64,000 bases of DNA from assembly GCA_963576785.1 (NCBI GenBank), contig OY756139.1, forward strand, positions 1,984,001 to 2,048,000, given 5' to 3'. Every line of letters begins with the position of its first letter. Position 1 is the first letter of the stretch. Positions 12,487 to 60,330 of this stretch are shown in pieces. The notes under the pieces are model-generated. The model was given only the letters and a program-made list of their open reading frames with translations. It was not told the origin of the DNA and ran no database searches. The translations under genes were made by a program, and so were the position numbers. Source of the DNA: Chlorophyllum brunneum. Its lineage: Eukaryota > Basidiomycota > Agaricomycetes > Agaricales > Agaricaceae.

Positions 12487-12800
12487 TGCGGCGCGACCCC
12501 TGCTAGCTTCCCACGTCTCCGACGTATGTAGAAGTTAATTGCGAATTGACGCATACTCTCCTTAGGGAGGGGAGGCAAGGGGTCGCTCTACATATCTGGT
12601 CTAGGACTCACGCGTTCGTGCGCGTTTCCGCGACCGTTCGCCCAGACCGCCTGTCGGCGGTCTAGCTCGGCCAGGGGAGAGCCAATCTTCGAATACCATT
12701 ACTTTTGTAGCCTACATGTCACAGTAGATACAGGTGGACTGCGATCGCGCACCACCTTAAACATGTTGATTTAAAAAAAAAATAAAAAAAAATAAAAAAA
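12487..12800 (+). other. Family A 3' UTR, terminal hairpin and A-rich tail (A4)
   Basis: Non-coding end of A4, the best-preserved family-A 3' UTR. A 5-bp stem GGTGG (12733-12737) / CCACC (12752-12756) encloses the 14-nt loop ACTGCGATCGCGCA, about 20 nt before the tail. Families B and C carry a closely related 14-nt loop in the same place. The 3' end of LINE RNA is where the element's own RT begins copying, so a conserved hairpin here is a reasonable RT recognition element (inference). Confidence 0.6.
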
Positions 12801-18631: not shown

Positions 18632-18657
18632 CTTCTTTGCCCGGAACTCCCACCTGT

Positions 18658-18671
18658 TGATCACGTGATCA
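18658..18671 (+). promoter_or_regulatory. Palindrome TGATCACGTGATCA in the B2 5' UTR
   Basis: A perfect 14-bp palindrome with a CACGTG core, 27 nt from the 5' end of the full-length element and 86 nt before the ORF1 ATG. It is identical in B1. Its position suits an internal pol II promoter element; the function is inferred. Confidence 0.4.
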
Positions 18672-18756
18672 CCCCTTCATCGACACTCTTAACGTCCTAC
18701 ACATCCAAGACAGTGAGCGCTCTTAGCGTGGATTTCCGTACGGGCCCCTAGCCCCC

Positions 18757-23700: not shown

Positions 23701-24001
23701 GTCTCCACCGCCGGGCATTTACAGTGAATTAACACCTACTGACCGGGCCTAGTCTTTGGACTGGGTCGCTGGTTGGGGGACCTCCCTGCCCACTCGCCTC
23801 CTCTGGCGTCCACTCCCCTCGCCCTCTGGGTTTGGGAGTAGGACGCAATTCCTCCTACCGTTGGCTTTGGGCAATGGTAATTTTGCTTGGTAGGGCGTAG
23901 TTACCACTTTCTCCATAGATACCTGCTTGTTTACTCTTTTGTACTCCGGCCGCGGGCTGTGTTCGAGCACCGCGTAATAAATCGGCCTTAGGCCATGAAG
24001 G

Positions 24002-24035
<34 letters not shown>

Positions 24036-25248: not shown

Positions 25249-25800
25249 CTGGCTCAGGGTAGGTGGGTTATTGTCCGGTGCCAGAGAACTCTGGTGAAAG
25301 TCCGGCGAAGACTCTCGGAGTTCTATGAACGGAGTTGTCCCCTTCGGCGACTAGGTGTGGTGAAGATACCAATAGCCACACAAATGGTGCAGTCAATTAC
25401 TCTGGCAAGGGTGACCGTGGCTGGGGGACTGGGTCTTAGTAAAAGGGAGTTGGGGCCTAGCTGGGCTAGTAACTGGGTACGTCTCCACCGCTGGGCATTT
25501 ATAGTGAATTAACACCTACTGACCAGGCCTGGTCTTTGGACTGGGTCGCTGGTTGGGGGACCTCCCTGCCCACTTGCCTCCTCTGGCGTCCACTCCCCTC
25601 GCCCTCCAGGCTCGGGAGTAGGATGCAATCCCTCCTACCGTTGGTTTTGGGCAACAGTACTTTTGCTTAGTAGGGCATAGTTACCACTTCTCCATAGATA
25701 CCTGCTAGAGTACTCATTTGTATTCCGGCCACGGGCTGTGTTCAAGTGCCGCGTAATAAATCGGCCTTAGGCTAGGAAAAAAAAAAAAAAAAAAAAAAAA
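25249..25800 (+). other. Family B 3' UTR and tail (B2)
   Basis: About 530 nt of non-coding sequence conserved in B3, B7, B8 and the nested fragment, ending TAATAAATCGGCCTTAGG before the A tail. GCCTTAGGC forms a short palindrome next to the tail. The 14-nt hairpin loop related to families A and C is decayed here. Confidence 0.7.
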
Positions 25801-29796: not shown

Positions 29797-31239
29797 CATA
29801 ACGCCCACGTACAGAGCCCCTTGAGGGAATAAAGCTCCTAGAGGCCCAGAGATGGGGGTCTTGAGATATCGTGTGCCCGTAGAATGCCCAGCATGTTCCC
29901 AGGCTCCCATATTGGTGTCGCATCTGGCCATGTTGCGGGGACTTTGCCCCTCCCTCCTAAGAGGTAAAGCCTTTAGCTTGGGCGAACACCCCGCTACTGA
30001 GAGAGCATGGTATCCCTGAGGACCGGCCCGCCATTCGCTTGAGGTATCCTTCCTATATGGTGCATGGACGGGATCTCACTGCTTGACTGTGCATGCCGCC
30101 ACCCCAAAACCAGACCTCTCGCATGGTAACAACTCAAATAGGTATACCCCGATCTTCACAGGGACCCACCGACAGAGGATTTTGACCTCTCGAGCCAGGC
30201 CGCTCCTTCTCGGTAACCGGGTGGCTTTTTTCAGCACACTCCCAGTAAATGGCCCGCTACGGTCTACTAGTTGGGCAGGCAGAGGCCACAAAGGCGTACC
30301 TCCAAGGCGTGACCCCTGGACTAGCTTCCCGTTCCCCCACAGCCGCTTTCGCTATGCCCTACCCCCAGAGGAGGCGACTTGTCTTTGGGCACGGATCCGC
30401 GTGCTAATACTGGCGGGGATCTCTGTCTCGCAGGGGGCGCTACCAGGGTGGTGTTCACATTGGATTACCTAAGCAACCCGTGGAATGGATTACTTAAGCA
30501 TTCCGTGGAATGGGTGCCAATCAACCCAAGTTTTCCTGAGTCAACCCAAACCCACCCATGCCCTGGAGTTTGGTGTATCCCTACTAATGACCAGGCGCTA
30601 CCCCCAGAGGGGTTTCCGAAGGCATGGCGACACTGGTGGGGGGTGGCCTGTCCTTTTGGTCGGCTTGTTATCACTCCATTCCCCCTATTATTGTCCCCTA
30701 TCCTTTCAGTCCCTTTCAGGTACAACAGGGTGGCTTTTTTCAGCATGCTCCCCACCGATGTGCAAGCATGATTGGGGGTGGGCCTGGATGTCCATTGTCA
30801 GCCGGTATAGCCCAGCCTCGAGATACTAGCCAGACTTGACCTGCAGCAGGGGTAAAAACCCATATGCGAATCCTATACAGGACTGCAAGCCCATCTAATT
30901 GGTAGAAGGGCCGCCACCACTGATGACCCAGCGAGCGCAAGTGAGCGAGGTGGCCAGTATCCCAGCCTTTAAGACCCTTTACCAAGGGGCCGCCTCGTCG
31001 ATCTGTGCGTATAGGCATCAGTCAGATGAATGGTGGGGATATGCCCACCTTTAATCGCCTTCACCAAGGGTGCGCTGCCCATCGACCAACTAACGTTGCC
31101 ACCCAGACCGCCCCCCTACAGCCAGCGAAGGCTCAGAAAAGACACGAGCCCATGAGAGAGAGCCCGAGAAACGAATGGTGCAATGAGGAAAGGGAAGTGG
31201 AAAAGTGATGGTGGTGGTAACAAGTCAAGGAGCGATGGC
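29797..31239 (-). repeat. Module N2: structured non-coding core, copy 2
   Basis: Full module. On the minus strand it starts CCATCGCTCCTTGACTTG (31238 downward) directly after the TSD and ends CCCTCAAGGGGCTC...ACGTGGGC at about 29797. It has the same internal duplications as N1, including both 20-mer copies (complement TTTTTTCAGCA near 30230 and 30735). N2 and N3 end on the same LINE-A codon. Confidence 0.75.
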
Positions 31240-35538: not shown

Positions 35539-35640
35539 AGTTGGCCTAATGGTTGAGTGGTTTGGGTGTAGGCTTAATTCCTACCAGGCTGCTTGGCTAG
35601 AAGGTCCTGGGTTCGAAACCTGTGGGGGGAGATTTATTCT
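35539..35640 (+). promoter_or_regulatory. tRNA-like head of M1
   Basis: A-box TGGTTGAGTGG (35550-35560) and perfect B-box GGTTCGAAACC (35610-35620). No TTTT pol III terminator occurs on the sense strand in the rest of M1 (to 36430), so a pol III transcript could run through the module. Confidence 0.65.
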
Positions 35641-36430
35641 CAACCGTGGGAAGTACCAGTACACGAGGCGTGGTTGCTTAGCAATATTCCCGGGTGACAC
35701 TGGATTAGGTTGTGTGGTCCTATTTGGCATTGTTTGGTGCTGTCACAGGCTAGCGTGGGAGTTGTCACACCTAGCCACATAGTAAGTCACATAGTGACGT
35801 CACACTGTCACGGTGTGACCCAGCTATGTGCATTGCCCAAGTCCAATATTGGCCAAAGGTGGTGGTGCCCTAATGTCGGGGCCTAACTTGGGAGGATTAC
35901 CTAAGTCACTGCTGGAGATAGGGCATTATAAGAAGGGGAATGTCGTGATAACAGTCCAACTCGGGGCATGCTGAAAAAAGCCGCCGAGATAGGATACCCC
36001 TCCCAGTCCGCTTCAGCATAGTTCTGGTAGTTAGTAGACATAACCCAATCTCCAGATTGAGGATGCTGACTAAGTTGGCTTAAAATAACCTCAGGACCAA
36101 TCTGGTAGCGGTGTCTGCAAGGTGTAGATCTCAGACAGTTAAGCACGGGGATCCGGGCCGTAAGGCATACCGAACCGACTGCTGAGGAATGGGAAGCAAC
36201 TCCGGGATAGCGCTTGGGTGAAGTTGTGGGCCGTAGTAGGTGATGTACTGGGGTGTGCTGAAAAAAGCCGCCAGTTATCAGAGAATACTCACCTAGCTCG
36301 AGAGGACTAAATCCTACATTGGTTGGCCTGGTACAGGAAAAATAGCCAGGTTCCAGCTCAAGTTGATTCCATGTCACCATTGGCTAAGGCTGGTGGTAAA
36401 AGACCCCTCAAGGGGCTCCGTAGACAGGTT
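35539..36430 (+). repeat. Module M1: tRNA head plus structured core
   Basis: About 890 nt. After the head come short inverted repeats with a TGACGTCA palindrome (35795-35802), then the 20-mer GCATGCTGAAAAAAGCCGCC at 35966-35985 and a near copy at 36253-36272. Between them, 36127-36220 resembles a 5S rRNA (GATCTC...GTTAAGCA...CGGGCC). The end, CCCCTCAAGGGGCTCCGTAG (36405-36424), matches the ends of N2-N4. The antisense frame is open for 159 codons and conserved in M2, but DNA identity explains that. Confidence 0.72.
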
Positions 36431-37966: not shown

Positions 37967-39395
37967 TAACACCCATGTACGGAGCCCCTTAAGGGAATAG
38001 AGGCCCAGAAATGGGGGTCTTGAGATGTCATGTGCCTGTAGAATGCCCAGCATGTTCCCAGGCTCCTATATTGGTGTTGCATCCAGCCATGTTGTGGGGA
38101 CTTTGCCCCTCCCTCCTAAGAGGTAAAGCCTTTAGCTTGGGCAAACACTTTGCTACTGAGAGAGCATGGTATCCCTGAGGACCGGCCTACTGTTTGCTTA
38201 AGGTGCTCTTCCTATATGGTACACAGATGGGATCTCACCGCAAGCTGCGCATGCCACCACCCCAAAACCAGACCTCTCACGTGGTAACAACTCAAATGGG
38301 TACACCCCAATCTTCACGGGGACCCACCAACAGAGGATTTTGACCTCTCGAGCTGGGTCGCTCCTTCTTGGTAACTGGACAGCTTTTTCTAGTGTGCTCC
38401 CAGTAAACAGCCTACTACAGTCCACTAGTTGGGCAGACAGAGGCCACAAAGGCGTACCTCCAAGGCACGACCCCTGGACTAGCTTCCCATTCCCCTGCAG
38501 CCACTTTCGCTATGCCCTACCCCCAGAGGAGGCGACTTGTCTTTGGGCACGGATCTGCATGCTAATACTGGCGGGGATCTCCATCTTGCAGGGGGCGCTA
38601 CCAGGGTGGTGTTCACATTGGATTACCTAAGCAACCCACGGAACGGGTTACTTAAGCATTCCGCAGAACAGGCGTCAATCAACCCAAGTTTCCCCGAGTC
38701 AACCCAAACCCGCCTGTGCCCTGGAGTTTGGCGTATCCCTACTAACGACCAGGCGCTACCCCCAGAGGGGTTCCCGAAGGCATGGCGACACTGGTGGGGG
38801 GTGGCCTGTCCTTTCGGTCAGCTTGTTATCACTCCGTTCCCCCTATTATCGTCCCCTATCCTTTTGGACCCTTTTGGGTGTGATAGGGTGGCTTTTTTCA
38901 GCATGCTCCCTACCGATGTGCAAGCACAATTGGGGGTGGGCCTGGATGTCTGTCATCAGCCGGTATAGCCCAGCCTCGAGATACTAGCCAGACTTGACCT
39001 GCAGCAGGGGTAATAACCCACATGTGAACCCTATATAGGACTGCAAGCCCATCTAATTGGTAGAAGGGTCACCACCACTGACGACCCAGCAAGCGCAAGC
39101 AAGTGAGGTGGCCAGTAGCCCAGCCTTTAAGACCCTTTACCAAGAGGCCACCTCGTTGATCTGTGCGTATAGGCATCAGTCGGATGAACAGTAGGGATAT
39201 GCCCACCTTTAATTGCCTTCACCAAGGGCATACTACCCATCGACTGACTAATGTTGCCACCCGGACCACCCCCCTACAGCCAGCAAAGGCTCAGAAAAGA
39301 CATGGGCCCATGAGAGAAAGCCCAAGAAACAAATGGTGCGACGAGGAAAGAGAAGTGGAAAAGTGATGGTGGTGGTAACAAATCAAGGAGTGATG
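37967..39395 (-). repeat. Module N3: structured non-coding core, copy 3
   Basis: Minus strand, starting CATCACTCCTTGATTTG next to the TSD (39395) and ending CCCTTAAGGGGCTCCGTAC at about 37975. It aligns along its whole length with N2 and N4. More CpG sites are lost than in N2. Both 20-mers are recognisable (complement near 38390 and 38895). Confidence 0.74.
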
Positions 39396-39537
39396 GCCTC
39401 TGAGCTGATGGGGGTGAAAGATGTCATGTTTAATGGCATCAAACTGGATTCAGTTGGAAAGCATTTTCTCAACCAATTTACCAAGGGTGTTCAGAAGGAT
39501 GATAGGCCTGAATGCCTTGGGAGTAGAGTAGGAGGGT

Positions 39538-41519: not shown

Positions 41520-42471
41520 CTTCTTTTCCCAGAACTCCCATCTGTTGATCATATGATCACCTCTTTGTTGACACTCTTAACATCCTACACATCCAAGGCA
41601 GTGAGCGCTCCTAGCATGGATTTCCATATGGGCCCCTAGCCCCCATGCCTCCTTGCAGTTTGAGAAGGAGGACGAGTGCTCATCACACAACCTCCTCAGA
41701 TGATGACAACATGGCTACTGCCTTCGAGGCAGTGGTCAGTCCTCCCCCCAGGTCCACCCCAGGCCCTTACTCCCTGAGTATCCCCCCTACGGCAGCAGTG
41801 CCAGGGATATCTATGCCCCTGCAGTTCCCCTTCAGCAGAGGGGATGCACTCTGTCGTGACATGGGTCCCCAACCCCCTCTTGACCTACCCCAGCTCCTAG
41901 CATGGAAGCCAGAGCTTTGTTTCTCCCCCTGTCTTCCCCACCCCCTGCCTCTCTGGAGGACATGGAGCAGGACAACCAGGAGGAGCCTACCGCCACCCCT
42001 CTCTCTATCCTGGGCATTAACATTAGTGCCAGAGAGGATGCCAATGTGATCCAATGGTTGCTCGAGATTGTTACCAACTTTATGAAGATGGCACATCTCA
42101 TTCCCCAGGAGGATGCTCCGTCCTTCCATCCCATTGCCTCTTGACTATCTGAGATAGTCCAGACAGTCACATCCTCCCCTATGTGGTGTGAAACCTACAT
42201 AGGGGTGAGTGACTCTCTCTCCCTGAGGGACTTGATCACTTTGGCATTTCCTATTCCCCCAGTGGTGATGTTCAGGCCTCTGGCTACCCCTCCAAGGGTA
42301 CCAGGGCCTTCTACCCTCGGCCTCCCCCAGCACAGGCCCCCTGTGCAGGAGGAGAACAATCTTATGGACCTAGAGAAGACTCCAGTCATCCCTTTTTTGA
42401 CTCTTACCACCACCATCAATTTGTTAAAAGTCGATTACATGGTTGAGAGTACAAGTACTAGGATAAATAAC

Positions 42472-44292
42472 ATGCCTGCATTACGCTCTGATCTCTCTTG
42501 CAGAGATCCTGCATCTGATAGTGAGGAGGACGTCTTTGGGTACTCACCACATGCCCCCGTCCCCTCCCTCTTTGTGGCCTCAATGGCTCTGCCCCCTCCC
42601 TCTTTGCGGCCTTAACGGCTCCGCTCCCTCCTGGTATCCTGCTCACCAGGGCGTCGGCCGCTACTGGCCCCTTCCCTTTAGTGGGCTTGGCACCCACCAG
42701 AACCCCTGTGGCCGCTCCGACTACCCCTCTCTCGCCCACGGTCCCTGTTGCTGGTGCCGTGGCGAAGACCCCCCATCGCTCCTCCAAACGCCCCAGGAAA
42801 GAGGGCGACCATTACTACTCCGGCGAGGCTGGAAAGGACAAGGACTGGGCTGAGCAAGTAGAGGAGGAATTGGCCCCAAAGACTGATAATGACACTGGGG
42901 AGCACAAAGGCTCCCCTGAGGAATTCTATGATGACGCCGTACAGGAGGTCGGCAAGATCTCTGCCTGGGTCAAGGCATGCAGCACATTCAACATGAGTGG
43001 CAATGATGGGCTTGCTTTCGGACAGGCTTTCACAGAACTAATGGGCACCTTGATGAAGGTGGGATGGCTCAAGGTTGCTGTCGATGAGCAAAAGAATGAC
43101 CTCCATGGTTGGCTGGGGGTAAACTTTGGAAAAATAGTGGTCTGCACAGAGGAAACCCCCCAGCCTGACCTTTCCCCTCTTCAACGGGGCCCCGGAGGCC
43201 CCACGCACAAGCCTGACGACGTCTGCATGGAGGTTGTCAAACAGATAATCACCCCAGGCATCGCCGAAGATGCCAAGAACAAGCCAGACGGCCCAGATGA
43301 GGATGTTCTGATGATAACTGAGGCAGAGTTCCAGACTGTCTCACACAAGAAGCCGTCCAGGGCACGGCGCACTAAGGCCACCCGGCCCGAGCCCCCAAAA
43401 ACCCCCAAGACAACCCCATCTGGCAGTGCGCCCTCCAAGGCCACTCCGGCACCTAAGGCTGCCCCTGCCACCACTAAGGCCCCGGCCCCTCAACCCAAGC
43501 CCTTCTATGCCACTGCTGCAGCTGGGGGGAAGAAGCCCCCTCCTACCACCACTGGACAGGACCCCCTCAAACTCCTGGAACTTGCTAGCAAGTTCCCGGA
43601 ACTAGCCCATGAGAAAGTCGTCACCATGTACGATGCTGCCTTCTCCCTCTCCCCCCCTGTGGACAAAAAGCCAGCCAGGAAGGCCACCACCTTCCGCTCG
43701 ACACTCAATGGTCCCTCGCATAAGCAGGTGATCATTCCCCTCCTTACCAGCCTGACTTCCCCCAACTTCGGCGCCATAATCGACTCCCTCAACACATGCC
43801 TTATTGCGGGAAAATCCAAAACACAGGTCATCGCCACCTCGCAGAGTAAGCTGGGCCTCATGGTCCACACCTCGGAGGTGTTGACTCTGACTGAGCTAGA
43901 CGCCGTCAAGGCCTGGCTCAAGCCCCCTCTCCCCACTCGTCTACTATTTTATGTAGCTTTCATTCGACTTTCATCTCTCCCGTGGTGCCTGGGTAAATAC
44001 CCACCCACATGCTATGTACTGTTTGATGTTCCCCCTTGTGATTGCGAGTAGATAGTTTCTCGTCTATCAATTTTCTCTCTCTCACTCTCTCTCTTTCCGA
44101 TTTCCTTTACTTCTCTCTTTTCGCTGAACATCGTAGGTACCAAACATCTCTCTAGTGTATGCGCTAGATGACAACGAGTCTCGTGGGGTTAGTTTACTTG
44201 TAGTTTACTCTCCCTTCTCCGAACATTCTGTACATTCTGCTTTTGTATGTATGTACACACAGACTGCATTCAAGCACCACTATATAAATTGT

Positions 44293-44331
<39 letters not shown>

Positions 44332-45055
44332 CTGGCTCAAGGACAAGTTCAAGGGAACTACCATGGGTGAGGCCTCCTTCCCAAAGTTGAAATCGTTTGT
44401 GAAGGTCACGGACATCTCCTACATCACCCCCCGTGGCCAGGTCCTGACAGCTGAAGATGTCACCTCCAGCATCCGTAGCTCTATCCACTCAGATACCATC
44501 CAGCTCGTGTCGCCCCCTAGAGTGCAGTGCAACTCTAAACACTCGGACACCTGCACGGTGTGGTTCAAGATCTGGGACTCCAAGGCGGGGACCAATGTTA
44601 ACAAGATCGAGGACAAGTTCCTCAATATCTACGGCGGGCTCTTCCGCATTAGAAAGGCCACTACCAACCCGGGTGTCCCATTCTGCAGCAAGTGCTGCAG
44701 GTGGGGTCACCCACTTGTTTGATGCCGTGCTAGGCTTTACACGTGCGCGCACTGCAGGGGCCCTCATTCGGTCACCAACCACTGCTCTTTCGCTAGCTGC
44801 TGCAAGGGCAACGACAAGGCTGACCCACCAGTCGCAGCCACCCCTATCGGGGAACCATGCCCCCACAAGCCATTGTGCCCCAACTGTGGCAAGGAGCATC
44901 TCACCACAGATCGCAAGTGCCTATTCTGGAAGAAATGCTTCGACCAGAACTGGCACGCTAACAAAGCCCTCGAGCTCAGGGCCAACAAGGGAGTTCCGCT
45001 CGCCCCCCCTTCCTCATCCCCGGCTGGTCAAAGCCAGACCAACCCCCCCCAATGA
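42472..45055 (+). pseudogene. C1 ORF1: gag-like protein, broken by a 32-bp duplication and an insertion
   Basis: Starts MPALRSDLSCRDPASDSEED. A 32-bp tandem duplication (42568-42599 / 42600-42631) shifts the frame. From 42681 it is open through EFYDDAVQEVGKISAWVKAC and NDGLAFGQAFTEL, a Pro/Ala/Lys-rich linker and PLKLLELASKFPELAHEKVVTMYDAAF, until the nested C fragment at 43923. After it come FVKVTDISYITPRGQ, CNSKHSDTCTVWFKIWDSKAG and knuckles CSKCCRWGHPLV..., CAHCRGPHSVTNHC and CPNCGKEHLTTDRKC. TGA 44720-44722 is CGT (Arg) in C2. It ends at TGA 45053-45055. Confidence 0.83.
43923..44328 (+). mobile_element. C fragment nested in C1 ORF1 (3' UTR only)
   Basis: A 406-bp C 3' end (ORF2 stop region, pyrimidine-rich UTR, oligo-A of about 30 nt) with TSD GGCCTGGCTCAAG at 43910-43922 and 44329-44341. 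It carries no complete coding domain. It shows that the family-C machinery also produces extreme 5' truncations. Confidence 0.88.
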
Positions 45056-48000
45056 ATAACACACCTGACAAACAAGACAGGCCACCTCACTCACTGCTGA
45101 GGGAGTTGAAGGTCTGCTCTCACAATGTTGGAAGATCATATGGAGTGATGGAGACAGTCCTTACACATAGAGGTGATGTCGACCTCCTCCTCATACAAGA
45201 ACCCCTCTGGAGATACCTCCACAACATTCCCTCCCCCATCTCTGATGACAGAGTCCCTCTCATAGGAGGCCCAATCCACCCGGATTGGACACTCCTTTCC
45301 TACCCTCCCCCCACCAATGAAGTCCTCCAAGTTGGACGCCGGCACTACCCCGAACGTGCGGTTGACCTAAACTATCATACCATACCACATGTCTTGGCCT
45401 TCGCCCACAAAAGGCTCAAGAAACTTCGGCTGTCCATTCGACGGGATATAATTGACCATCGAGACCTCCTGTATGTATCGCTATACGCGGGAGGAGAGGA
45501 ACTGCTACTGCTCAACATTTACAATGACAGTCACAACACCATGCTCCACTTCCTCGAGGAGTGGCTCTTTGAACTACTGCCATTTGTGCTAATGGGGGGC
45601 GACATCAATATCCAGTCAGAGCTATGGGACCCTTCGATGGCACAACATCCGGCGAGTGTGAACCGTCTGCTCATGATCACCAAAGCCCTCAACCTTGTGA
45701 GGACAACTCCGACTGTGGCCATTCCAACATGATATGCTGTGGATCCTAACCTCCCTGATACGGTCATCAACCTCCTCTTCATATCGGCGATGCTACCTTA
45801 CATCCCCTCCCACACCATCCAAGTGGGCGACCGGTACAACTCGGACCATGCCCCCTGCGTATCAACATTCTGATCCCACACATGGACATTGTCATAGAGC
45901 GATTGACAATGCCCAAGGGCTCGGACAAAGAAACCAGATTCTTAGCAGATATCATGGAAGGAATTAGCAACAAGGACTGGCCGATGAATGATGTGGATGA
46001 GTTGGAGGAATCCGTCAACAAGCTCGGAGGGTTATTTCACAGATCCTGGGACCGTAACGCGAAGAAGACCAAGATTACCACCAGATCCAAGACTTGGTGG
46101 AACGAGGAGTGTGCTACGGCGCTCGCAACACACTGTGCAGACCGCAAAAATAGGCGCAAATGGGCCGCCTTTCGCAAGACCATGAGGAAGGCAAAGAGGG
46201 AGTACTTCGACAAGAAGATACAAGAAATCTCAGTCGACAACAAACAGCCATGGGATTTGATGCCATGGGTCAAGGATCAGGCCCTCCCGGCCATGGAAGC
46301 CATCCGCCACAATGGCCAACCGTGTCTCACCACAGACAGCCTATGGAGAGCCCTGGACCAACACTACAACACCATGCACGACAGACCAGTCAACGTGACA
46401 AGTCTACAGGAACTTCCCCCTCCAACCAGAGTGGAGAGTAGGACTTGGGTTGACTTCTCTCTCCTTGAGATGGCGGAGTTGCTCAAGGATACCTCAAACT
46501 CTTCCGCCCCCGGCCCCGACTATGTCTCCTGGTCCCACCTCAAACAGATTGCCACCATAGACACCTGCACCGATCTCTTCCTTTGAATCAGTCATGCATG
46601 CCTAGCCCTCACATTTTAAAAAGTCGACGTCGGTCATAATTCCTAAACCAAACAAACCCAACTACTCCACCCCGAAGATGTTCCATCCGATCGTCTTGCT
46701 CAACACACTTGGCAAGCTCGTTGAGAAGATGCTGACTAAATGATTATAGTTCGAAGTGGTGAAGTTTAAGGTGCTCCACCCTCACCAATTGGGTGCAATA
46801 TGCCAGCGATCTACCGAAGACACAGGCCTCTTTCTCACCCATCTTACCTGGGGAGCCTGGACAAAGAAGAAGAAGATGTCGGTGCTTGCATTTGACGTCA
46901 CCTAATTCTTCCCCTCCCTCAACCACGCACTTCTCACCGACATCCTTGGATGCCAGGGGTTTTCCCCTCAAATTGCGGCATTCTTCGACAACTATCTCGT
47001 AGGACGGCGTACTTCCTATCGGTGGAACAATGAGACTTCCCCGGAATTCGACACTGTGGTGGGAGTGGGCCAGGGCTCTGCTCTCAGTCCCATCCTCTCT
47101 ACACTATACCTCGCACCCCTCCTCCATATCTTTGATGCACGTATGAAGGAACACTGCCACCGCTGGGACTTTGATGTCCTCTCCTTTGTTGACAACGGCA
47201 CTCTGATTGCCCAGTCCCCCTCCCTCGAACGCAATGTCGAAATACTCCAACACATGTACTGCGAAATGGAGCAGCTCATGGGCAAGTTTGGCCTTGCAAT
47301 CGAACACAGCAAGTCTGAGGTCTTTCACTTCACCCATGCGAAGCAGGACACCAACCCCTCCATCGACTTGGGATCACCTCCATTCACGGGGCATACACTA
47401 CTCAAACCGAAGGCACACTGGCAATATCTCGGGTTCTACTTCGACTGGACACTCACCTTCAAGGAACATGTACGGTACTATGCCGCCAAGGCCATCTCAA
47501 CGGTCAAGACAATGAAGATGCTAGGGAACCCGGCAAGAGGATTGTCCCCTAGCAACAAGAGGCTACTGTACCACTTGTGCGTCGTGCCTGTCGCGACATA
47601 TGGGTATCGACTCTGGTTCCACGACAAGTCCCGGATGAAGGGGACTTGCGACATCCTCAACAAGATGCAGCGTTGCGCTGCCCTCTGGATCACCAGGGCC
47701 TTCCAAACATCCCCCACTGGCAGCGTTAAGTCCCTCGCAGGGCTCATGCCCATTAAACTCCACCTCTGAAAGCTCGCCAAACAACAAACATCAAGGCTAC
47801 ACACTTTGGACAACGAACACGTACTGGCGAGATTGGTAAAAGAGTATCATTCTTCCCCACATTGACTTCACATCAAGAATTTCACAGAGATTCAGAAGAA
47901 GAAGACACTTGGAGCAGTGATGGACGTTTCCCGCCCCACCCCCAAGACTTGCTATGTAGAATCTTTCAACTCTGTTTCTAAGACTCTCTGGCCTGGATGT

Positions 48001-49086
48001 AGGTTACTTGACCAGTTCCCTACTAATATTTCTTTCATAGGTTTCAACTGAGACGAACCCCACCTCTCGAAGACCCTCTGGGATGACGTGATAACGAATG
48101 TGACAATGGACTCCAAGTCCATCATTATTAGTATGGACGGTTCGGTCCACCCCAACCCCAACCCACTCACCAGCCAGTACATGGTGGCAGCCACCATTCG
48201 ACATCTAGATGGAGGAACGTCTGTCATGAAGAGGCTCAGAGGTACCACGTCCACTGATGCTGAGCTGGTCGTGCAGTACCTAGGTATCACCAAGGTCCTC
48301 GCCTCCACCAATTATAACCAGGTTGAACACATCCATGTGTTCACTGATTCCCTCGTAGCCTCCTGACTACTACTCGACTGCTCGCCGCATTCCTGCCAGC
48401 GGCAGTCTATCCTCACTTTGAAGACACTCCTGACCTGGTTCAACAAATCCAGCCAGCACCGCCTTTCCTTCTACCACACTCTGTCTAAATGCAAATACAG
48501 GTTGCAGAAAGCCACTCACGACTGGATTCAAACAGTCGCCTGGCCGAACCGAGGTCAAAACCACTGAGTCCCCAACTCGATCGACTACCTCCGAAAGAAG
48601 TCCGCCGAACGTGCCATTCACACATGGCAAGCCATGTTTGGCTTCAAATCCTACAGCGGTAGCTCCTTCCTCCACCTCCTGGTGTAAGCGAATGGAGCCT
48701 CTGCTCTACCGTCGCACATCAAGTCCGGTCCCTGGATACGAGAATGCGGATACCAGCCACAGCTCTTTGCAAGAGCTTGTTGTGCCATACTTTGCCATGC
48801 CCCAATTGGAGAGTACCACCTGAGGTTCTTTCCCAACGAGGATCTGGCCTACTACCACTGTGACAATCAGATGGTTCAAACCAGGTTGCATGTCCTATTT
48901 CGGTGCCAGAGCTTTGACTACCATTTCGGCATTGGTACAATCAAGGAGTTCACCAACTTCTTGCGCCGCAATCCCTCCACGTTCACCTTCCCCCCTGAAG
49001 TTGAACGCCCTCATATCTGTGCCGGGTCAATCCCCCCGCCATGTCATCATCAGGTCCATCAAAGGTTTGGGTCAGCTCCGGTTTGA
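45052..49086 (+). pseudogene. C1 ORF2: EN, RT, RNase H, many disruptions
   Basis: ATG 45052 overlaps the ORF1 stop (ATGA). EN shows LLIQEPLWRYL, GGDINIQSELWDP and SDHAP. Breaks include TGA 45730-45732, a frameshift near 45868, TGA 46584-46586 followed by a deletion near 46610, TGA 46741-46743, TGA 47767-47769 and several more in RNase H. RT shows GVGQGSALSPIL and a catalytic box mutated to FVDN (Asn codon 47194-47196; FVDD in C3). RNase H reads MDGSVHPN, TDAELVVQY and FTDSLVAS. It ends FGSAPV at 49086. Confidence 0.84.
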
Positions 49087-49502
49087 TTCCTTTCTCTCTC
49101 TCTTTTTCTTTTGCTCTCATGGTTATGGATTTCGCTTCATTTCTCTATCTTTTCCTCCTTCGCTAGTGTACTATTTATATAGTCTTCTTTTCTTCTCCCA
49201 TCTTTCCTGTGGTGCGGGGCTAAAGAACCCTCCCACATGCTAGTACCGTTTGCTGTTCCCCCTTGTGATTGTGAGTAGATAGCTCTCTTTCTATCTCTTT
49301 CTCTCTCTCTCACCCTCTCTCTCAGGACAATGTTGGTACCAAACACCTCTCTAGTGTATGTACTAGATGGCGTCGAGTCTTGCGGGGTTAGTTTAATTTC
49401 CCCTCTCTGAACACTTTGTATGAGTATGCTTTTGTATGTATGTACACGCAGACTGCGAACGAGCACCGCTATATAAATTGATGATTTAAAAAAAAAAAAA
49501 AA
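49087..49502 (+). other. Family C 3' UTR and tail (C1)
   Basis: Pyrimidine-rich non-coding end, conserved in C3 and the nested fragment. The 14-nt loop ACTGCGAACGAGCA lies at 49452-49465, flanked by a weak stem, about 20 nt before the A tail. TATATAAATT precedes the tail in all C copies. Confidence 0.6.
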
Positions 49503-50219
49503 AGAGAAGACTCTAGTCAAACACCCATGCACGGACCCTAAGGGGAAAGCACCCATCCGACCTGTAAAGGCTCCTATGAAGCCTTAGGTCCCCTACAAGA
49601 GGCCCTCTGGACCTCCTCCCTCCACACTCACTTCAAAGCCCAAGCCAGGACAGAAGGCTTATTTGGCTGCAGCAAAACAACCAGCCTCAGCCAAACCTGG
49701 GGTGGACCTGCTTTTTTTGTTGAAAGCTACCTTTCCCCACCTCTCTGTGGAGCAGCTCCTCAGTCTTCATGCACAGGCCAAGGCTGCAAAGCAATCCCCC
49801 TCATCCAATGCTTGCCCTAAAAAGCCAGCATTCATGATTCCTGGACCTTCGTGTAAGTAGGTCCTAGTCTCCTATGAAGACAAGTCAAATGCCTCGGCAG
49901 GTCTTCATACTCTTACCCAGCAGGCCTGTAAGGCATTGAAGACTAGGAGAAGCTCTCTGATCATGGAAGGTGCCATGCTCACATATGATGGCTATTCCAT
50001 GGCCACCAACAAACTTGCCACAACTAAGGATATTAAGATCCTTAGGGTGCTGGTCGAACGTCTGTCCCCTCCAGGAGCCCCCTTCTAGATTGGACTCCCC
50101 TCTTTGGTGTCATACCTCCGTGTGGTCAATGTTCCTTATCTCAAGAACTCTGCCACCAGAGTTCAATGCATCCCAGCTGACATCAAGGAGGTCCTTATCT
50201 CATCAGTTCACACTCCTCT

Positions 50220-51654
50220 CCATCACTCCTTGACTTGTTACCACCACCATTACTTTTCTACTTCCCTTTCCTCATTGCACCATTCGTTTCTCGGGCTCTC
50301 TCTCATGGGCTCGTGTCTTTTCTGAGCCTTCGCTGGCTGTAGGGGGGCGGTCCGGGTAGCAATGTTAGTTGGTCGATGGGCAGTGCGCCCTTGGTGAAGG
50401 CAATTAAAGGTGGGCATATCCCCACCATTCATCTGACTAATGCCTATACGCACAGATCGACGAGGCGGCCCCTTGGTAAAGGGTCTTAAAGGCTGGGATA
50501 CTGGCCACCTTGCTCGCTTGCGCTCGCTGGGTTGTCAGTGGTGGTGGCCCTTCTACCAATTAGATGGGCTTGCAGTCCCGTATAGGATTCGCATGTGGGT
50601 TTTTACCCCTGCTGCAGGTCAAGTCTGGCTAGTATCTCGAGGCTGGGCTATACCAGCTGACAACGGACATCCAGGCCCACCCCCAATCATGCTTGCACAT
50701 CGGTGGGGAGCATGCTGAAAAAAGCTGCCCTGTTGCACCTAAAAGGGACCAAAAGGATAGAGGACAATAATAGGGGGAACGGAGTGATAACAAGCCGACC
50801 AAAAGGACAGGCCACCCCCCACCAGTGTCGCCATGCCTTCAGAAACCCCTCTGGGGGTAGCGCCTGGTCGTTAGTAGGGATACGCCAAACTCCAGGGCAT
50901 GGGTGGGTTTGGGTTGACTCAGGGAAACTTGGGTTGATTGGCACCCATTCCGCGGAATGCTTAAGTAACCCGTTCTGTGGGTTGCTTAGGTAATCCAATG
51001 TGAACACCACCCTGGTAGCGCCCCCTGCGAGACAGAGATCCCCGCCAGTATTAGCACGCGGATCTGTGCCCAAAGACAAGTCACCTCCTCTGGGGGTAGG
51101 GCATAGCGAAAGCGGCTGCGGGGGAACGGGAAGCTAGTCCAGGGGTTATGCCTTGGAGGTACGCCTTTGTGGCCTCTGCCTGCCCAACTAGTGGACCGTA
51201 GCGGGCCATTTACTGGGAGCATGCTGAAAAAAGCCACCCGGTTACCGAGAAGGAGTGGCCTGGCTCGAGAGGTCAAAATCCTCTGTCGGTGGGTCCCCGT
51301 GAAGATTGGGGTGTACCTATTTGAGTTGTTACCATGCGAGAGGTCTGGTTTTGGGGTGGTGGCGTGCGCAGTCAAGCGGTGAGATCCCGTCCATGCACCA
51401 TATAGGAAGGATGCCTCAAGCGAACGGCAGGCTGGTCCTCAGGGATACCACGCTCTCTCAGTAGCGGGGTGTTCGCCCAAGCTAAAGGCTTTACCTCTTA
51501 GGAGGGAGGGGCAAAGTCCCCGCAACATGGCCGGATGCGACACCAATATGGGAGCCTGGGAACATGCTGGGCATTCTACAGGCACACAACATCTCAAGAC
51601 CCCCATCTCTGGGCCTCTAGGAGCTTTATTCCCTCAAGGGGCTCCATACACGGG
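50220..51654 (+). repeat. Module N4: structured non-coding core, copy 4
   Basis: The reference N copy: exact 5' edge at the TSD (CCATCACTCCTTGACTTG) and 3' edge CCCTCAAGGGGCTCCATAC (51631-51649). The 20-mers are at 50710-50729 and 51219-51238. Its start resembles the start of C1 and C2 (both begin CATCNCTYCTTTGACT and continue ACCACCACCATC). No ORF longer than about 130 codons is found on either strand. Confidence 0.76.
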
Positions 51655-52793
51655 CACACCCCAGATTGATCGCTCTCATGACCCCCGCTCAGGCAGTCAA
51701 GGTCAAGAGGCCAGTCACAGAGGCAAACTCTCGTTTGCCAGACTTAACAGAGACGTTCGAGCCATTTGCACTCGAAGCGTTGCCAGGTTCTTGTCTCCTG
51801 GACTGCTACGCAGCTCAGGTGACTTACAAAACGTATGACGCCTTACTCGGTGGAAACCCTGTGGGTTGTCAGGTGGATTTGCTCAACAATACCCTTTGTG
51901 GGTATCATGAGGATAGACAGGTGGTCTACGCAGCGACGGACACAAGTCTGCCGCTGGTTGGGGACTTCCAGGCAGTTTCTGCTGCCCATGTTTATAGAGG
52001 GACACATTTAGTTTGTGCAATGCATCACCCAGCTGGCAAGGTTACAGCCCCGGATGCTGAACTTTTTGCCATTCGTATGGCTTTGGGAACTGCTGCGGCA
52101 GTCTCTGAGGCAGTACATATCGCGGTCTTTACAGACTCGATTGGTTCTGCCAAGCGAGCTCTTGACCCGTCTGTACATTCTGGCCAGGGTCATTCCCTGG
52201 CTGTTTGTCATCTTCTGTTGGAGTGGTTCAGGGATTGTCCTGACCGCTCCCTCACTTTCTGGTCCGTTCCATCTTCGGCGAAATGGTCCATACATCAGGA
52301 TGTGCATTTATTTGCCACCGACCTTTGAGTCACCACTGGACATTGTTCAGCAATGTCTATTGACTCGCTATGTAAGATAAACGTGGCAACCATTCAGAAG
52401 GCCTGGAAGGTTACCTTCCAGGACTCCTCTTATCATGGTTCAAACTTCCTTGCTCTCAAGGATAGTAAGAACAAGCTTTTACAGCCAACATACCTCCATG
52501 GGGGTTCTTGGCTTCCTTCCTTTCCCTCTCAGTCTATTACAACGAGGGCGAATTGTGCCATCCTCGGGCATGCTCCAACTGGCAAGTATCGCTCCCGGTT
52601 TCATCCCCTTGAGCCTGTTAGCTGCAAGTGTGGGGCTCCCTTGGAGACCCGCACTCATATCTTGTGCTCTTGTCCTTTGTACAAGAGACGCCATGGCCTG
52701 CCGGTCTCTATCAACCAGTTGGTAGCTTTTCTTAAGTGCAATCCCTCGGTGTTTGTGTTTAGGTCCAATACACTGCTTGCGGGAGTTGGATAA
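51655..52793 (+). pseudogene. A8 ORF2 C-terminal fragment
   Basis: Single frame with TGA at 52326-52328 (CAG Gln in A4). RNase H residues TDTSLPL, DAELFAIRM and FTDSIGSAKRALD are intact except for an Ala-to-Thr change. It ends TAA 52791-52793. The 3' UTR and tail follow to 53094. Confidence 0.8.
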
Positions 52794-53224
52794 TGCGGTG
52801 CGGCCCCTGCTAGCTTCCCATGTCTCTGGCGTGTGTAGAAGTTAATTGCGAATTGACGCATACTCTCCTTAGGGAGGAGAGGCTAGGGGTCGCTCACTTT
52901 TTTGGTCTAGGATTTGCACGTCCATGCGTGTTTCCATGACTGTTCACCCAGACTGCCTGTCGGCAGTCTAGTTTGGCCAGGGGAGAGCCAATCTTTGAAT
53001 ACCCTCTTTGTGTAGCCTACATGTCACAGTAGATACAGGTGGACTGCGACTGCGCACCACCTTAAACATGACGATTTAAAAAAAAAAAAAAAAAAGTTCA
53101 CACTCCTCTTATCAGTCTCAAGAGTCCCCCTAGACTGGTGTGCAACTCCAAGACATCTGGCTCCTGTACAGTGTTCTTTGACATCTGGGACTCCATGAGG
53201 GGTACCTGCACTCTCAGTCTTCTG

Positions 53225-55027
53225 GTCATCGTCTAAGCTAAAACTTGGGAACCTAATTTGGCATGCCTCAAGTAGGCATACCAGATTATATATCGCTTGA
53301 CTACTTTGTTTGGGCTTGCCGTCGAGCATGACAAGTCCGAAGTCTTTCATTTCTCCCGTAAACGGGGAGATGACAACCCACCACTGGATTTGGGGTATGC
53401 TCCCCATACCAGCGACACTCCGCTATGCCCTAAGACCCACTGGAGGTACTTGGGTTTTTTCTTCGATCACACTCTTACGTTCAAAGAGCACGTTCGACAC
53501 TATGCTACCAAGTCTCTGTCCACGGTTAAGGCCATGGGCATACTTGGTAACTCTTCTTGAGACCTTCTTCCTGCTCAGAAGAGGACTCTTTATTGCTCGT
53601 GCATAGTTCCTATCGCTACGTATGGGTTTTGACTCTGGTTTTATGAAGGCGCCCGCAACAAGGCCCTTCTGAAACAACTTAACACTATGCAGTGAAAGGC
53701 TGTGTTGTGGATCACTGGTGCATTCCGCACCAGCCCTACCGGAGGAGCTGAGGCCTTGGCTGGCCTCATCCCCATCCATCTTCATCTCAAGAAGCTGGCT
53801 ACCTGTGCCATCCACAGGATTGCCACACTTTCTGAGAATCACCCTGTTTGCTCCATTATGGGGCATCAGTACATTGGGGGATGTGCTCCACACCCCAGAT
53901 TGATTGCTCTCATGACCTCCGCTCAGGCGGTCAAGGTCAAGGGGCCTGTCACAGAGGCAAACTCTCTTTTGCCAGACTTAATGGAGATGTTCGAGCCATT
54001 TGCGCTTGAAGCGTTGCCAGGTTCTTGTCTCCTGGACCGCTACGCAGCTCAGGTGACTTACAAAACGTATGACGCCTTGCTCGGTAGAAACCCTGCGGGT
54101 TGTCAGGTGGATTTGCTCAACAATACCCTTTGTGGGTTTTGTGAGGATAGACAGGTTGTCTACGCAGTGATGGACGCAAGTCTGCTGCTAGCTAGGGACT
54201 TCCAGGCAGTTTCTGCTACCCATGTTTATAGGGGGACACGTTTGCTTCATGCAACGCATCACCTAGCTGGCAAGGTTACAGCCCCGGATGCTGAACTTTT
54301 CGCCATTCATATGGCTTTGGGAACTGCTGCGGCAGTCCCTGAGGCAGTACATATTGCGGTCTTTACGGACTCGATTGGTTCGGCCAAGTGAGCTCTTGAC
54401 CCGTCCGTACATTCTGGCCAGGGACATTCCCTGGCTGTGTGTCGTCTCTTGTTGGAGTAGTTCAGGGATCATCCTGACTGCTCCCTCACTTTCTGGTCCG
54501 TTCTGTCTTCGGCGAAATGGTCCATTCATCATGGTGTGCATGTATTTGCCACCGATCTACAAGTTGCCGCTGGACGCCATCTAGAGACATCTATTGATTC
54601 GCTGTGCAAACTTAGTGTAGCAACTGTTCAGAAGGCCTGGAAAGTCACTTTCCAGGACTCCTCCTATCGCAGTTCTAACTTCCTTGCTCTCAAGGACAGT
54701 AAGAACAAACTTCTACAGCCAACGTACCTCCATGGGGGTTCTTGGCTTCCTTCCTTTCCCTCTCTGTCTGTTGCAACGAGGGTGAACCATGCCATTCTTG
54801 GGCACGCACCAACCAGCGAGTATTGCTCCTGGTTCCATCCTCTAGAGCCTGTTGGCTGCAAGTGTGGGGCTCCTTTGGAGACCCGCACTCATATCTTGTG
54901 CTCTTGTCCATTGTACAAGAGACGTCGTGGCCTGCCAGTCTCTGTTGACCAGCTGGTATCGTTTCTTAAGCGTAATCCTTCTGCATTTGCGTTTAAGGCC
55001 AACACACTGCTTGCGGGAGTTGGATAA
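53225..55027 (+). pseudogene. A12 ORF2 fragment, stops mostly from CGA or TGG codons
   Basis: Single frame with TGA 53558-53560 (CGA in A4), TGA in GF*LWFYEG near 53630 (CGA), TGA near 53694 (CGC/CGT), TGA 54389-54391 (CGA) and TAG near 54459 (TGG). The RNase H core reads VMDASLLL, DAELFAIHM and FTDSIGSAK. It ends TAA 55025-55027. The spectrum of stops fits cytosine deamination. Confidence 0.8.
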
Positions 55028-55328
55028 CGTAGTGCGACCCCTGCTAGCTCCCCACATCTCTGATGTGTGTAGGAGTTAATTGCGAATTGACGCATACTCT
55101 CCCTAGGGAGGGGAGGCTAGGGGTCACTTTGCATATCTGGTCTAGGATTCATGCATTCATGTGTGTTTCTGTGACCGTTCACCCAGACTGCCGACAGGCA
55201 GTCTAGTTTGGCCAGGGGAGAGCCCATCTTCGTGTACCCTCTATTGTATGTACATGTCATAGTAGATACAGGTGGACTGCAATCGCACACCACCTTAAAC
55301 ATGTTGATTAAATAAAAAAAAAAAAAAA
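53225..55328 (+). mobile_element. LINE family A, copy A12, 5'-truncated without module
   Basis: A plain 5'-truncated A copy inserted in B5 with TSD ACTCTCAGTCTTCTG (53210-53224, 55329-55343). It begins right after the RT active site (IV*AKTWEPNLA) and carries the rest of ORF2, the 3' UTR and an A-rich tail. It shows that A elements also insert without an N or M module. Confidence 0.88.
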
Positions 55329-57592
55329 ACTCTCAGTCTTCTGAACAAGAAGATTATGTTTGGGAACAAGTAGTGCATAATACTCTCTGCCAACCCCTGC
55401 CACAACAAGTCATTGTGTACCTGCTGTTACAAGTGGGGCCACACCTCCTCCTGGTGCAAGGCTGATGGCCCTGCATGTCCCGACTGTAGTGGGGCACACT
55501 CTTGTGCCAACCACTGCACCTTTGCACAGTGTTATAAGGGGCAACCAAAGGCTACACCTCTGGTTCCTGCTACCCCAGCTGATCAACTGTGCCCCCACCC
55601 TCCTCATTGTTGTAACTGCAAAAAGGAGCACCCCGCCAATTCTAGGAAGTGTACTTTCTGGAATCACAAACATGACCGGGCCTGGCTGACAGCCCACTAT
55701 CGAGAGGTGTGTGACAGATGTTGTTGCTCTCCCATCCTCCCTCATAACCCCCCTTATGTCTAGGAACAACCTGGACCATCTGGAGGGCATTAGGGTTTTT
55801 TCATTTAACGTTGCTAAATCTTATGTATACGTTGACACTCTGCTCGAGAAATTGAAAGATGATTTTGATGTTCTCTTTTTCCAAGAACCTCCTTAGAGGT
55901 TCATCTGCTCCACTCCCTCAACCACTGACATGGAAGGGGATGACATTATTGGCACACCTAAGCACCCTGACTGGCTCATGGTGATGCGTCCCCCTACCCA
56001 GGGGTCCCAGCCCTGAGTGATGGCTTATGTTCACACTCAGCTGCAATATCTAAGGCCATCAATGAGGAGGGATCTCATTGATCACCCTGATATCCTTGCA
56101 CTGATGTTCTTTACTGATGTAAAGGCTTACAACTTCCTGAACATCTATTCAGACAATCAACACACTGCCATCAACTTCCTTCATGGGAAGGTTGATGTTC
56201 TTCTCCCATTCAACTTTATGAGTGGGGACTTCAACTGTCATTCTTTGGAGTGGGACCCTGAGGTTCTGCATCATCGAACAACAGCTCATAAGCTCATGGA
56301 AATGAGTTGCAATCTCGGTCTCGATTTGGTTATGCCAACCAACCTGGGTCTGATGTTTATCTCCCACAACCCAGATCTTTGCCCATCGGTGATTGATCTG
56401 GTGTTCATCTCTTCTCCCGATGCATCAAGGACTTTTCCTTATCAGGACCTATCCCTTCAGGGTACTTTGGATCACATCCCATTGACTGTTACCCTTCCTA
56501 TTGCTCCCATTGACATTGGGATCGTCAAATCTGTTCTCCCAAAGGGCTCCAATGAAGAGGGGGCCTTCTTGGGACATGTCATTGATGAGGTGACCGATCT
56601 TTGTGATTGTCCCTCTCCAGAATCCCCGGAACAAGTGGACACCTTGGCATTTGCTGTGGCTGAAGCCTTTTCCAATGCATGGACCCACCACTCGAAGGAG
56701 ATCTGGATCACTCATTGCACTCATCCCTGGTGGGATGAGGTGTGCTCTACCTCCTTCTCCAGGTACCAGGGCTCTTGTAGCTGTGGTGACTGGGGGGACT
56801 TTAGGCGTGCTCATACAGCAGCCAAACATTGGTTCTTCAATTCTAAGAACGAAAAGATTGCCTCTACTAACAAGCGACCATGGGACCTTATGGAATGGGT
56901 CAAGGCTTGCAAGTTACCCCCCTGTGAGGTTATCCAGTTTAATGGACAGCCTTGTCATGGTATGAACTCCCTTTGGGATGCCCTCCATGCGATGTACAAC
57001 TCTGCTGCTGATTGACAGTGTGATAAGTCTGTTCTCGACCCCCTCCCTGACCTTCCAGTCAGGGAGTGGGCCCCTTTTTCGACACTGGAGCTTACGGAGG
57101 CTTTGTCCTCCTGCTCTAATACGTCCTCCCCGGGGCCAGACCATGTTACATGGTCCCACCTCAAGTACATTGTCATCAATGAAGATTGCTTGACAGTGTT
57201 CCTGTGCCTGGCCAATACCTGCCTTATAGTGGGTTACTAGCCCCACAGCTTCAAGGAGTCACTCTCGGTTATCATTCCAAAACTGGGGAAGCCCTCCTAC
57301 TCTACCCCCAAGGTGTTCAGGCCTATTGTCCTCCTGAACATGCTTGGTAAATTGGTTGAGAAAATGCTTTCCAACTGAATCCAGTTTGATGCTATTAAAC
57401 ATGATATCTTTCATCACCATCAACTTGGAGGCATTTGCCAACATTCTACTGAGGACACTGGGTTGTTCCTTACCTACCTGGTCTATACTGGGTGGGCCAA
57501 GGATCTCAAGATGAGCATTGTCACTTTCGACATCACTCAGTTCTTTCCCTCTTTGAACCATGAGATGCTCATGGCCATACTTGGCAAGCAGG

Positions 57593-58499
57593 TCAGCCTA
57601 ATGGTCGAGTGGTTTGGGTGTAGGCTTAATTCCTACCAGGCTGCTTGGCTAGAAGGTCCTGGGTTTGAAACCTGTGGAGGGGGATTTATTCTCAACTGTG
57701 GGAAGTACCAGTGCACGAGGTATGGTTGCTTAGCAATATTCCTGGGTGACACCGGATTAGATTGTGTGGTCCTATTTGGCATTGTTTGGTGCTGTCACAG
57801 ACTAGCGTGGGAGTTGTCACACCCAGCCACATAGCAAGTCACATAGTGATGTCACACTGTCATAGTGATGTCACACTGTCACAGTGTGACCCAGCTGTGT
57901 GCATTACCCAAGTCCAATATTGGCCAAAGGTGGTGGTACCCTAATGCCGGAGCCTAACTTGGGAGGATTACCTAAGCCACTGCTGGAGATAGGGCATTAT
58001 AAGAAGGGGAATGTCGTGATAACAGTCCAACTCAGGGCATGCTGAAAAAAGCCGCTGAGATAGGATACCCCTCCTGGTCCGCTTCGGCATAGTTCTGGTA
58101 GTTAGTAGACATAACCCAATCTCCAGATTGAGGATGCTGACTAAGTTGGCTTAAAATAACCTCAGGACCAATCTGGTAGCGGTGTCTGCAAGGTGTAGAT
58201 CTCAGACAGTTAAGCACGGGGATCCGGGCCGTAAGGCATACCGAACCGACTGCTGAGGAATGGGAAGCAACTCCGGGATAGCGCTTGGGTGAAGTTGTGG
58301 GCCGTAGCAGGTAATGTACCAGGGCATGCTGAAAAAAGCCACCGGTTATCAGAGAATACTCACCTGGCTTGAGAGGACTAAATCCTACATTGGTTGGCCT
58401 AGTATAGGAAAAATAGCCAGGTTCCAGCTCAAGTTGATTCCACGTCGCCATTGGCTAAGGCTGGTGGTAAGAGACCCCTCAAGGGGCTCCATAGACGGG
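57593..58499 (+). repeat. Module M2: tRNA head plus structured core
   Basis: Closely similar to M1. A-box TGGTCGAGTGG (57602-57612); the B-box has decayed to GGTTTGAAACC (57662-57672). A repeat TAGTGATGTCACACTGTCA is duplicated near 57845-57885 (single in M1). The 20-mers are at 58037-58056 and 58324-58343. The 3' edge CCCCTCAAGGGGCTCCATAG is at 58475-58494. Confidence 0.73.
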
Positions 58500-58500
58500 A

Positions 58501-60299: not shown

Positions 60300-60330
<31 letters not shown>

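Follow-up and report, generated by a model that had tools for sequence, protein, structure and literature searches.

Two discrete non-coding modules of Chlorophyllum brunneum, N and M, are fused to the 5' side of truncated LINEs, and the LINE triplet lost at the joint follows the type of the module, not the family of the LINE. A complementary triplet lies at one homologous place inside the modules and appears to serve as a guide that selects the joint. We infer that module and LINE are joined at the RNA level, and that this joining is catalysed. N and M are probably SINE-like parasites of LINEs, which have no LINE tail of their own and would take one as RNA.

Modules N and M and their LINE partners

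The analysis covered the window (the whole 64-kb stretch of DNA examined) and the genome of 38.9 Mb in 14 contigs to which it belongs. The window holds four N copies (N1-N4) and two M copies (M1 and M2), which are listed in Table 1 together with LINEs for comparison. Module N is 1.44 kb and module M 0.91 kb long, and their ends are mostly fixed. In most copies N begins at position 1-9 and ends at about position 1435, with a few exceptions; the ends of M are equally sharp, and most module copies terminate in GGG. Sequence comparison bears out the preliminary description of this DNA, in which N and M were said to have a common core and 3' edge and different heads; the core extends from the guide to the 3' end, and the differing heads would fit different promoters. 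It is also correct that within the window M is joined once to LINE A (M1-A10) and once to LINE B (M2-B7). The motif CATGCTGAAAAAAGC occurs at 50711 and 51220 in N4 and at 58038 and 58325 in M2, with variants in other copies; the copy within the core is part of a hairpin.

Table 1. Modules, LINE parts and target-site duplications (TSDs) in the window
Feature	Position	Strand	Details
Left TSD of N4-A8	50206..50219	+	GTTCACACTCCTCT
Module N4, type N-a	50220..51654	+	non-coding, fixed ends
Guide of N4, GGAG	50781..50784	+	directly 5' of UGAUAACA; shared core begins here
Module 3' edge	51631..51654	+	CCCTCAAGGGGCTCC and 3'-terminal ACGGG
5'-truncated LINE A (A8)	51655..53095	+	poly(A) 53078-53095
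Right TSD of N4-A8	53096..53109	+	second copy of GTTCACACTCCTCT
Module N1, type N-b	14027..15453	+	guide GAGG 14583-14586; LINE A from 15454
Module N2, type N-a	29804..31238	-	guide 30674-30677; LINE A 29803-27891; TSD GAACCAGTTGATT
Module N3, type N-a	37972..39396	-	guide 38832-38835; TSD ATCAGCTCAGAGG
LINE A of N3 (A9)	37971-37865 and 35538-33721	-	two parts separated by the M1-A10 insertion
Module M1	35539..36428	+	guide GTCG 35942-35945; LINE A 36429-37864; TSD GACCATGGAYAGGGA
Module M2	57593..58499	+	guide GTCG 58013-58016; LINE B 58500-60330; TSD ATACTTGGCAAGCAGG
tRNA-Leu-like head of M2	57593..57690	+	box A-like and box B-like motifs
Full-length LINE B	18632..25802	+	own 5' end, no module; comparison
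Full-length LINE C	42389..49503	+	own 5' end, no module; comparison
Truncated LINE A	9062..12801	+	no module; comparison
Truncated LINE A	53225..55329	+	no module; comparison

A single TSD pair encloses module and LINE in most of the copies that could be scored. N4-A8 (50220-53095) has the same TSD on both flanks, and 14 of 15 bases agree in the TSD pair of M1-A10; no recognisable TSD was found around N1 (14027-15453). All five single TSD pairs reported earlier (N4-A8, N2-A7, N3-A9, M1-A10 and M2-B7) are present. Among 30 copies with both ends readable, 20 gave a TSD score of at least 10 for a pair enclosing module plus LINE, rather than separate TSDs for the two parts; whereas none of 285 mismatched pairings scored 8 or more. 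The other ten include L020 (score 7), which looks like a mutated TSD, L049- (score 6), which is doubtful, and eight copies with scores of 0-3.

DNA searches of the genome returned at least 49 N matches and at least 44 M matches (40 of 175 and 40 of 92 candidates were scored, respectively). The 3' edge CCCTCAAGGGGCTCC was found at 110 genome sites with at most one mismatch, versus 4 for the reversed control. Joints were read in the window, at the loci of 30 N matches (out of 49) and 30 M matches (out of 44), and in extra short stretches, namely the uncovered sites among the 100 of the 110 edge places that were listed and nine further N matches. L065, L100 and L101 (chance matches to the 3' edge) and L113 and L114 (edge unreadable) were left out before the counts; 121 edges were read, two of which were chance matches, and 119 module 3' ends were analysed. 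In agreement with the claim that the module always lies 5' of a truncated LINE in the same orientation, 118 of the 119 ends continue into a LINE (A, B, C or others), and one into module N. The LINE begins within 30 nt of the edge, mostly at once, in 104 ends, as judged by LINE A DNA or LINE protein matches. Among the remaining 15, LINE B or C was recognised in 14, and the last one (L102) matches an internal part of N; L102 is an M-N chimera, with M joined to N at a CGA site. A genome search for free copies had been suggested as a check, and no solo module was met among these 119 ends. The proposal of a recurrent RNA partner, possibly a dedicated non-autonomous element, is judged right, and the partner is probably dedicated. 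Some joints recur (M at LINE A positions 2303, 2955 and 3437; N at 1820 and 3060), which may mean that whole chimeras are also propagated as units or that certain sites are hot.

Most of the 100 listed edges are concentrated in a single region of about 20-250 kb on each of 13 contigs (C1-C13), with a few outliers; C14 has no module edge among them. These clusters may be pericentromeres. At one locus (L062, C12:1693300-1696100) two M copies enter LINE B at an identical joint, and in one of them the tail is no more than about 45 nt that resemble LINE B, followed by poly(A), so that this copy looks like a classical SINE. Differences of the CpG type (C to T and G to A) were seen by eye to be frequent among module and LINE copies, as if these were methylated.

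The proteins of LINE A are closest to those of Agaricales such as Cyclocybe, Candolleomyces and Psilocybe. In the full-length copies of LINEs B and C, their own 5' sequence begins directly after the TSD, and the 5' terminal sequence of LINE B was also found at seven further places in the sequences examined. These module-free copies contradict, for B and C, the notion of N and M as 5' UTRs native to the LINEs, with the chimeras as internal deletions or splice products. Moreover, a single module type joins several LINE families, and the joints are spread along the LINE; a splice-acceptor AG was rejected, as it precedes none of the 40 distinct LINE A joints (2.1 expected). The notion draws some support from nt 11-37 of N (50230-50256), which resemble the 5' end of LINE C (42397-42422; 85% over 27 nt, E 0.17), and from the failure to reach a full-length LINE A in the four short stretches searched, where nested insertions were met. 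The likeness to LINE C is suggestive only; N may have borrowed a LINE promoter. As far as the tests go, the modules are not native LINE 5' ends, a finding that the preliminary description had named as one that would refute its reading, and we give this origin almost no credence. Four LINE insertions in the window are truncated and yet carry no module. At 31857-31918, the 3' end and poly(A) of a LINE A directly abut another truncated LINE A (31917-33257); no TSD was found there.

Joint triplets and the matching sequence in the modules

Each chimera was compared with LINE copies that run through the joint. The comparison yielded 80 distinct joints from 115 of the 119 copies, the four copies without a LINE reference being left out. 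The triplet just upstream of the joint, which is lost in the chimera, is CTY with N-a, CCT with N-b and CGR with M. For N-a (27 joints), C is found at -3 in 25 and T at -2 in 27, while -1 is C in 17, T in 8 and A in 2; CT occupies -3 and -2 in 25 of the 27 (LINE background 0.087, p 1e-24). For N-b (9 joints), the counts are C in 7 at -3, C in 8 at -2 and T in 7 at -1, with CC in 7 of 9 (p 2e-6). For M (44 joints), they are C in 35 and T in 9 at -3, G in 36 and A in 7 at -2, and A in 26 and G in 8 at -1; CG is present in 28 (p 6e-26), and in 42 counting CA and TG. These p values are binomial against the LINE composition, with the joints taken as independent. Base 0, immediately after the joint, is G in only 1 of the 80 joints and C or T in 66.

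LINE A has C at -3 in 37 of its 40 distinct joints, and N-a and M each retain their own triplet on LINE A as on other LINEs. LINE A thus shows CTY with N-a but CGR with M, which indicates that the module sets the joint site. Some of the counts tell against a guide: the N-b triplet was derived from 9 distinct joints, of which 5 are CCT, and module-less truncated LINEs also have C at -3 in 3 of 4 cases, which are too few to judge. The GCC motif of the Magnaporthe MINE elements was tried as a candidate at the LINE A joints and rejected (0 of 40, 0.8 expected).

The LINE triplets predict guides of GAG for N-a, AGG or GGG for N-b, and UCG for M. At one homologous place, directly 5' of UGAUAACA, the modules carry GAG, AGG and UCG, respectively. 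In each type a G precedes the triplet and matches the C or T at base 0, giving GGAG (N-a), GAGG (N-b) and GUCG (M). The putative guide therefore reads as GNNG, and would pair with CNN|Y across the joint.

The guide was spotted by eye once the triplets were known, and a column scan was done afterwards on an alignment of the N and M cores (1134 columns, 67 copies; L063+ and L057- were left out because the motif finder had misplaced them). The guide column was the best, with 43 fully paired copies; the next column had 34, and the maximum of 200 target shuffles was 31. Among the type consensuses, in which C and G were preferred at 40% or more to undo CpG decay, exactly one of the 1134 columns is complementary in all three types. 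The guide was singled out by the joint scan of the three types only. Scans within N alone or M alone did not single it out, because wobble-tolerant triplets such as GGG and TTG score as high; this counts against a guide.

Taking the copies as they are today, full pairing of a called guide with its own target was seen in 43 of 64 (2 of the 64 calls are misreads), namely 21 of 34 for M, 20 of 23 for N-a and 2 of 7 for N-b. At guide positions capable of wobble (G or U), 27 of 42 cells that are not Watson-Crick are G-U, where one third would be expected, and 9 of the 27 could be CpG decay. This excess points to, without proving, a pairing between two sense RNAs. A pattern scan of the genome found GGAG, GUCG or their CpG-decayed forms at nearly all listed places, although flanking Gs are already part of the pattern, subject to the mismatches allowed. 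With up to three mismatches it gave 286 matches versus 128 in the reversed control, so the weaker matches are partly chance. Two older copies have AGG in register: the joint of L123 (CCT|T) fits the prediction, whereas that of L122 (CTC|C) does so only if the register is shifted by one base. A guide of three or four base pairs is short, which also weighs against it. Two diverged N-like copies (C1:1837870 and C4:2430336) have the guide context ATTGAGGTGA, and they are possibly an older module type.

RNA structure and the tRNA-like head

The common core contains covarying RNA helices. The three type consensuses folded together at -275 kcal/mol, compared with -242 +- 8 for column shuffles. Of the 152 folded pairs, 30 show double-sided changes, while 60 shuffles gave 16.2 +- 3.2 (maximum 26), and 34 of the 152 are broken in some type, against 44 in the shuffles. 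For a conserved 89-nt piece of the core, a structure was drawn by hand. Its helix has four double-change pairs, and 97.6% of the cells pair, while slid controls reach at most 56%. The 31 double-change cells exceed all 500 shuffles (12.1 +- 3.6); whereas the number of double-change pairs (4) is not above the shuffles (3.6). Rfam searches with N and M, in the window and two loci, gave no match at the gathering thresholds and chance-level matches only at permissive ones (E up to 5 and up to 10). The modules thus match no known ribozyme family, which speaks against the mechanism proposed below.

The head of M is tRNA-Leu-like, and that of M2 has motifs which we take to correspond to box A and box B. 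ARAGORN called a tRNA-Leu on an M-type head at 7820-7910 and in two (L044 and L048) of the seven M loci examined; it made no tRNA call on M2 itself (L031) or in three N loci. Runs of four T are absent from M2 and occur four times in N4, and N is therefore unlikely to be transcribed by Pol III at full length. A head derived from a small RNA with a Pol III promoter, as in SINEs, would thus be present in M only. The preliminary description supposed that the module may supply a promoter; the head of M may indeed bring one. An M head of 104 nt, consisting of just the tRNA-Leu-like part, lies at 7820-7943, where it adjoins the poly(T) of a LINE B in inverted orientation; a TSD was not found.

Proposed joining of the RNAs and relation to known systems

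The chimeras, their TSDs, the module-specific triplets and the complementary guide are all read from the DNA sequence. In the mechanism that we propose and consider somewhat more likely than not, the sense RNA of the module would recognise CNN|Y in a LINE RNA by base pairing through the 4-nt guide GNNG. Within the short helix so formed, Y would become linked to the G that ends the module at its 3' side, which corresponds to step one of reverse splicing; the 5' part of the LINE would be released. The LINE protein might finally copy the module and the LINE tail by target-primed reverse transcription. The catalyst of the joining might be the module itself, or an activity of the host or of the LINE. 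With belief and doubt about evenly balanced, we regard N and M as a new kind of mobile RNA, which bears a guide, is probably catalytic, and trans-joins itself to LINE transcripts at a guide-chosen CNN|Y, thereby stealing the LINE 3' tail. The guides of the types change together with their targets, and the WEIRD RNA of the MINEs would belong to the same kind, its guide triplet being predicted as GGC.

Insertions of chimeric LINEs are commonly attributed to chance jumps between templates. In the present case the partner RNA seems to specify where the joint is made, and the three guide-target pairs would be natural compensatory changes. If the joining is RNA-catalysed, N and M would represent a natural trans-joining ribozyme that lives as a retroposon. 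This would be a parasite's route to LINEs beside the mimicry of LINE tails, and the GCC motif of Magnaporthe would be accounted for as well. A guide-chosen joining to LINEs, if true, is a new way for a parasitic RNA to become DNA.

The joint is non-random, its triplet is set by the module type, and the triplet is matched inside the module; plain template switching has therefore become a weaker explanation. The preliminary description referred to it and foresaw neither the absence of free copies among the 119 ends nor the module-specific triplet, while its recurrent partner, its single TSD pair and a promoter in M stand. A modified form, in which the guide only tethers the two RNAs and the enzyme jumps to the GGG end of the module during target-primed reverse transcription, seems unlikely to us. 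It shares its architecture with the U6-L1 and MINE chimeras (a full-length RNA 5' and a truncated LINE 3'), and the M-N chimera resembles a tripartite copy of Magnaporthe; but the position of the joint within the guide helix is constant, base 0 is also pairable (C or T in 66 of 80), and a helix of 4 bp would presumably hardly stop the enzyme after one paired base. More doubtful still is that the guide directs a cut in the LINE RNA and that a host RNA ligase, for instance the fungal tRNA ligase, then seals the ends. It would account for the guide, the exact ends and the RNA-level joining, and the available part of a study of U6/LINE-1 chimeras proposes RNA ligation before retrotransposition (PMC13174262); however, an extra cutting activity and a specific end chemistry would be needed, and nothing here separates ligase sealing from direct transesterification. 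We consider it very improbable that reverse transcriptase has site preferences of its own for leaving the template and that the modules are just abundant RNAs. The shared GCC|A/U of the MINE joints is explained in this way in the part of the MINE paper at hand (PMC2104539), whereas on LINE A the triplet is CTY when the partner is N-a and CGR when it is M, a difference which the reverse transcriptase and the LINE alone would not produce.

The proposed trans-joining can be compared with several known systems. In the reverse splicing of introns, the 3' end of the RNA is joined just 3' of a target that is paired to an internal guide. Group I introns have a 3'-terminal G and a U at -1 that pairs with a guide G; group II introns have domains V and VI and a 3' end of AY. 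The pairing across the joint resembles P1/P10 or EBS1/delta, and the modules also end in G as group I introns do. Differently from group I, there is no constant U-G pair at the joint, since -1 is C, T or A with N-a and mostly A with M, and no Rfam match to the conserved catalytic core was found. Group II is likewise without an Rfam match, and the 3' end is GGG instead of AY. Complete reverse splicing, with a LINE part directly upstream of the module (LINE-module-LINE), was met in none of 59 copies tested.

Typical tRNA-derived SINEs are non-autonomous, with a tRNA-like head and a fixed LINE-derived 3' tail. The modules are non-autonomous too, M has a tRNA-Leu-like head, and the tail is LINE-derived; however, this tail is not fixed and varies by copy and by LINE family (80 distinct joints), and the body is 0.9-1.4 kb long. 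The literature search, in sources available in part, met no precedent for a guided or spliced LINE-SINE fusion. The U6-L1 and other mammalian LINE-1 chimeras similarly have a full-length small RNA in sense on a truncated LINE, with TSDs, and the part of the source at hand proposes RNA ligation or template switching (PMC13174262). There, host RNAs are used occasionally and that part describes no guide; whereas here the partner is itself a repeat family, and it appears to name its own joint.

The closest known elements are the MINEs, in which the WEIRD non-coding RNA is fused to the MGL LINE of Magnaporthe (Gogvadze et al. 2007, PMC2104539). According to the accessible part of that paper, they consist of a full-length 1.1 kb non-coding RNA 5' and a 5'-truncated LINE, with TSDs of 10-20 bp; no solo RNA copies were found, and one copy is tripartite. 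The authors saw no homology between the templates, and proposed a property of the reverse transcriptase together with the template structure. The 18 representative rows of their Table 3, several of which share a site, were counted here as GCC in 11, GTC in 4, GCT in 2 and AGC in 1. Thus 17 of the 18 joints are G-Y-Y, which would pair with GGC if G-U is allowed; against a guide, base 0 (A8, T7, C2, G1) fits no single fourth guide base. As far as the accessible text shows, MINEs involve one RNA with MGL and Mg-SINE as partners, and GCC|A/U is ascribed to the reverse transcriptase with no guide proposed; whereas three module types with type-specific triplets, a matching guide and several LINE families were found here, and M has a tRNA-like head. 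The two systems have the same architecture and a single TSD pair, solo copies were met in neither (here among 119 ends), the joint motif occupies the same positions of the LINE, and the GCC motif of the MINEs, judged from that partial source, fits the guide rule.
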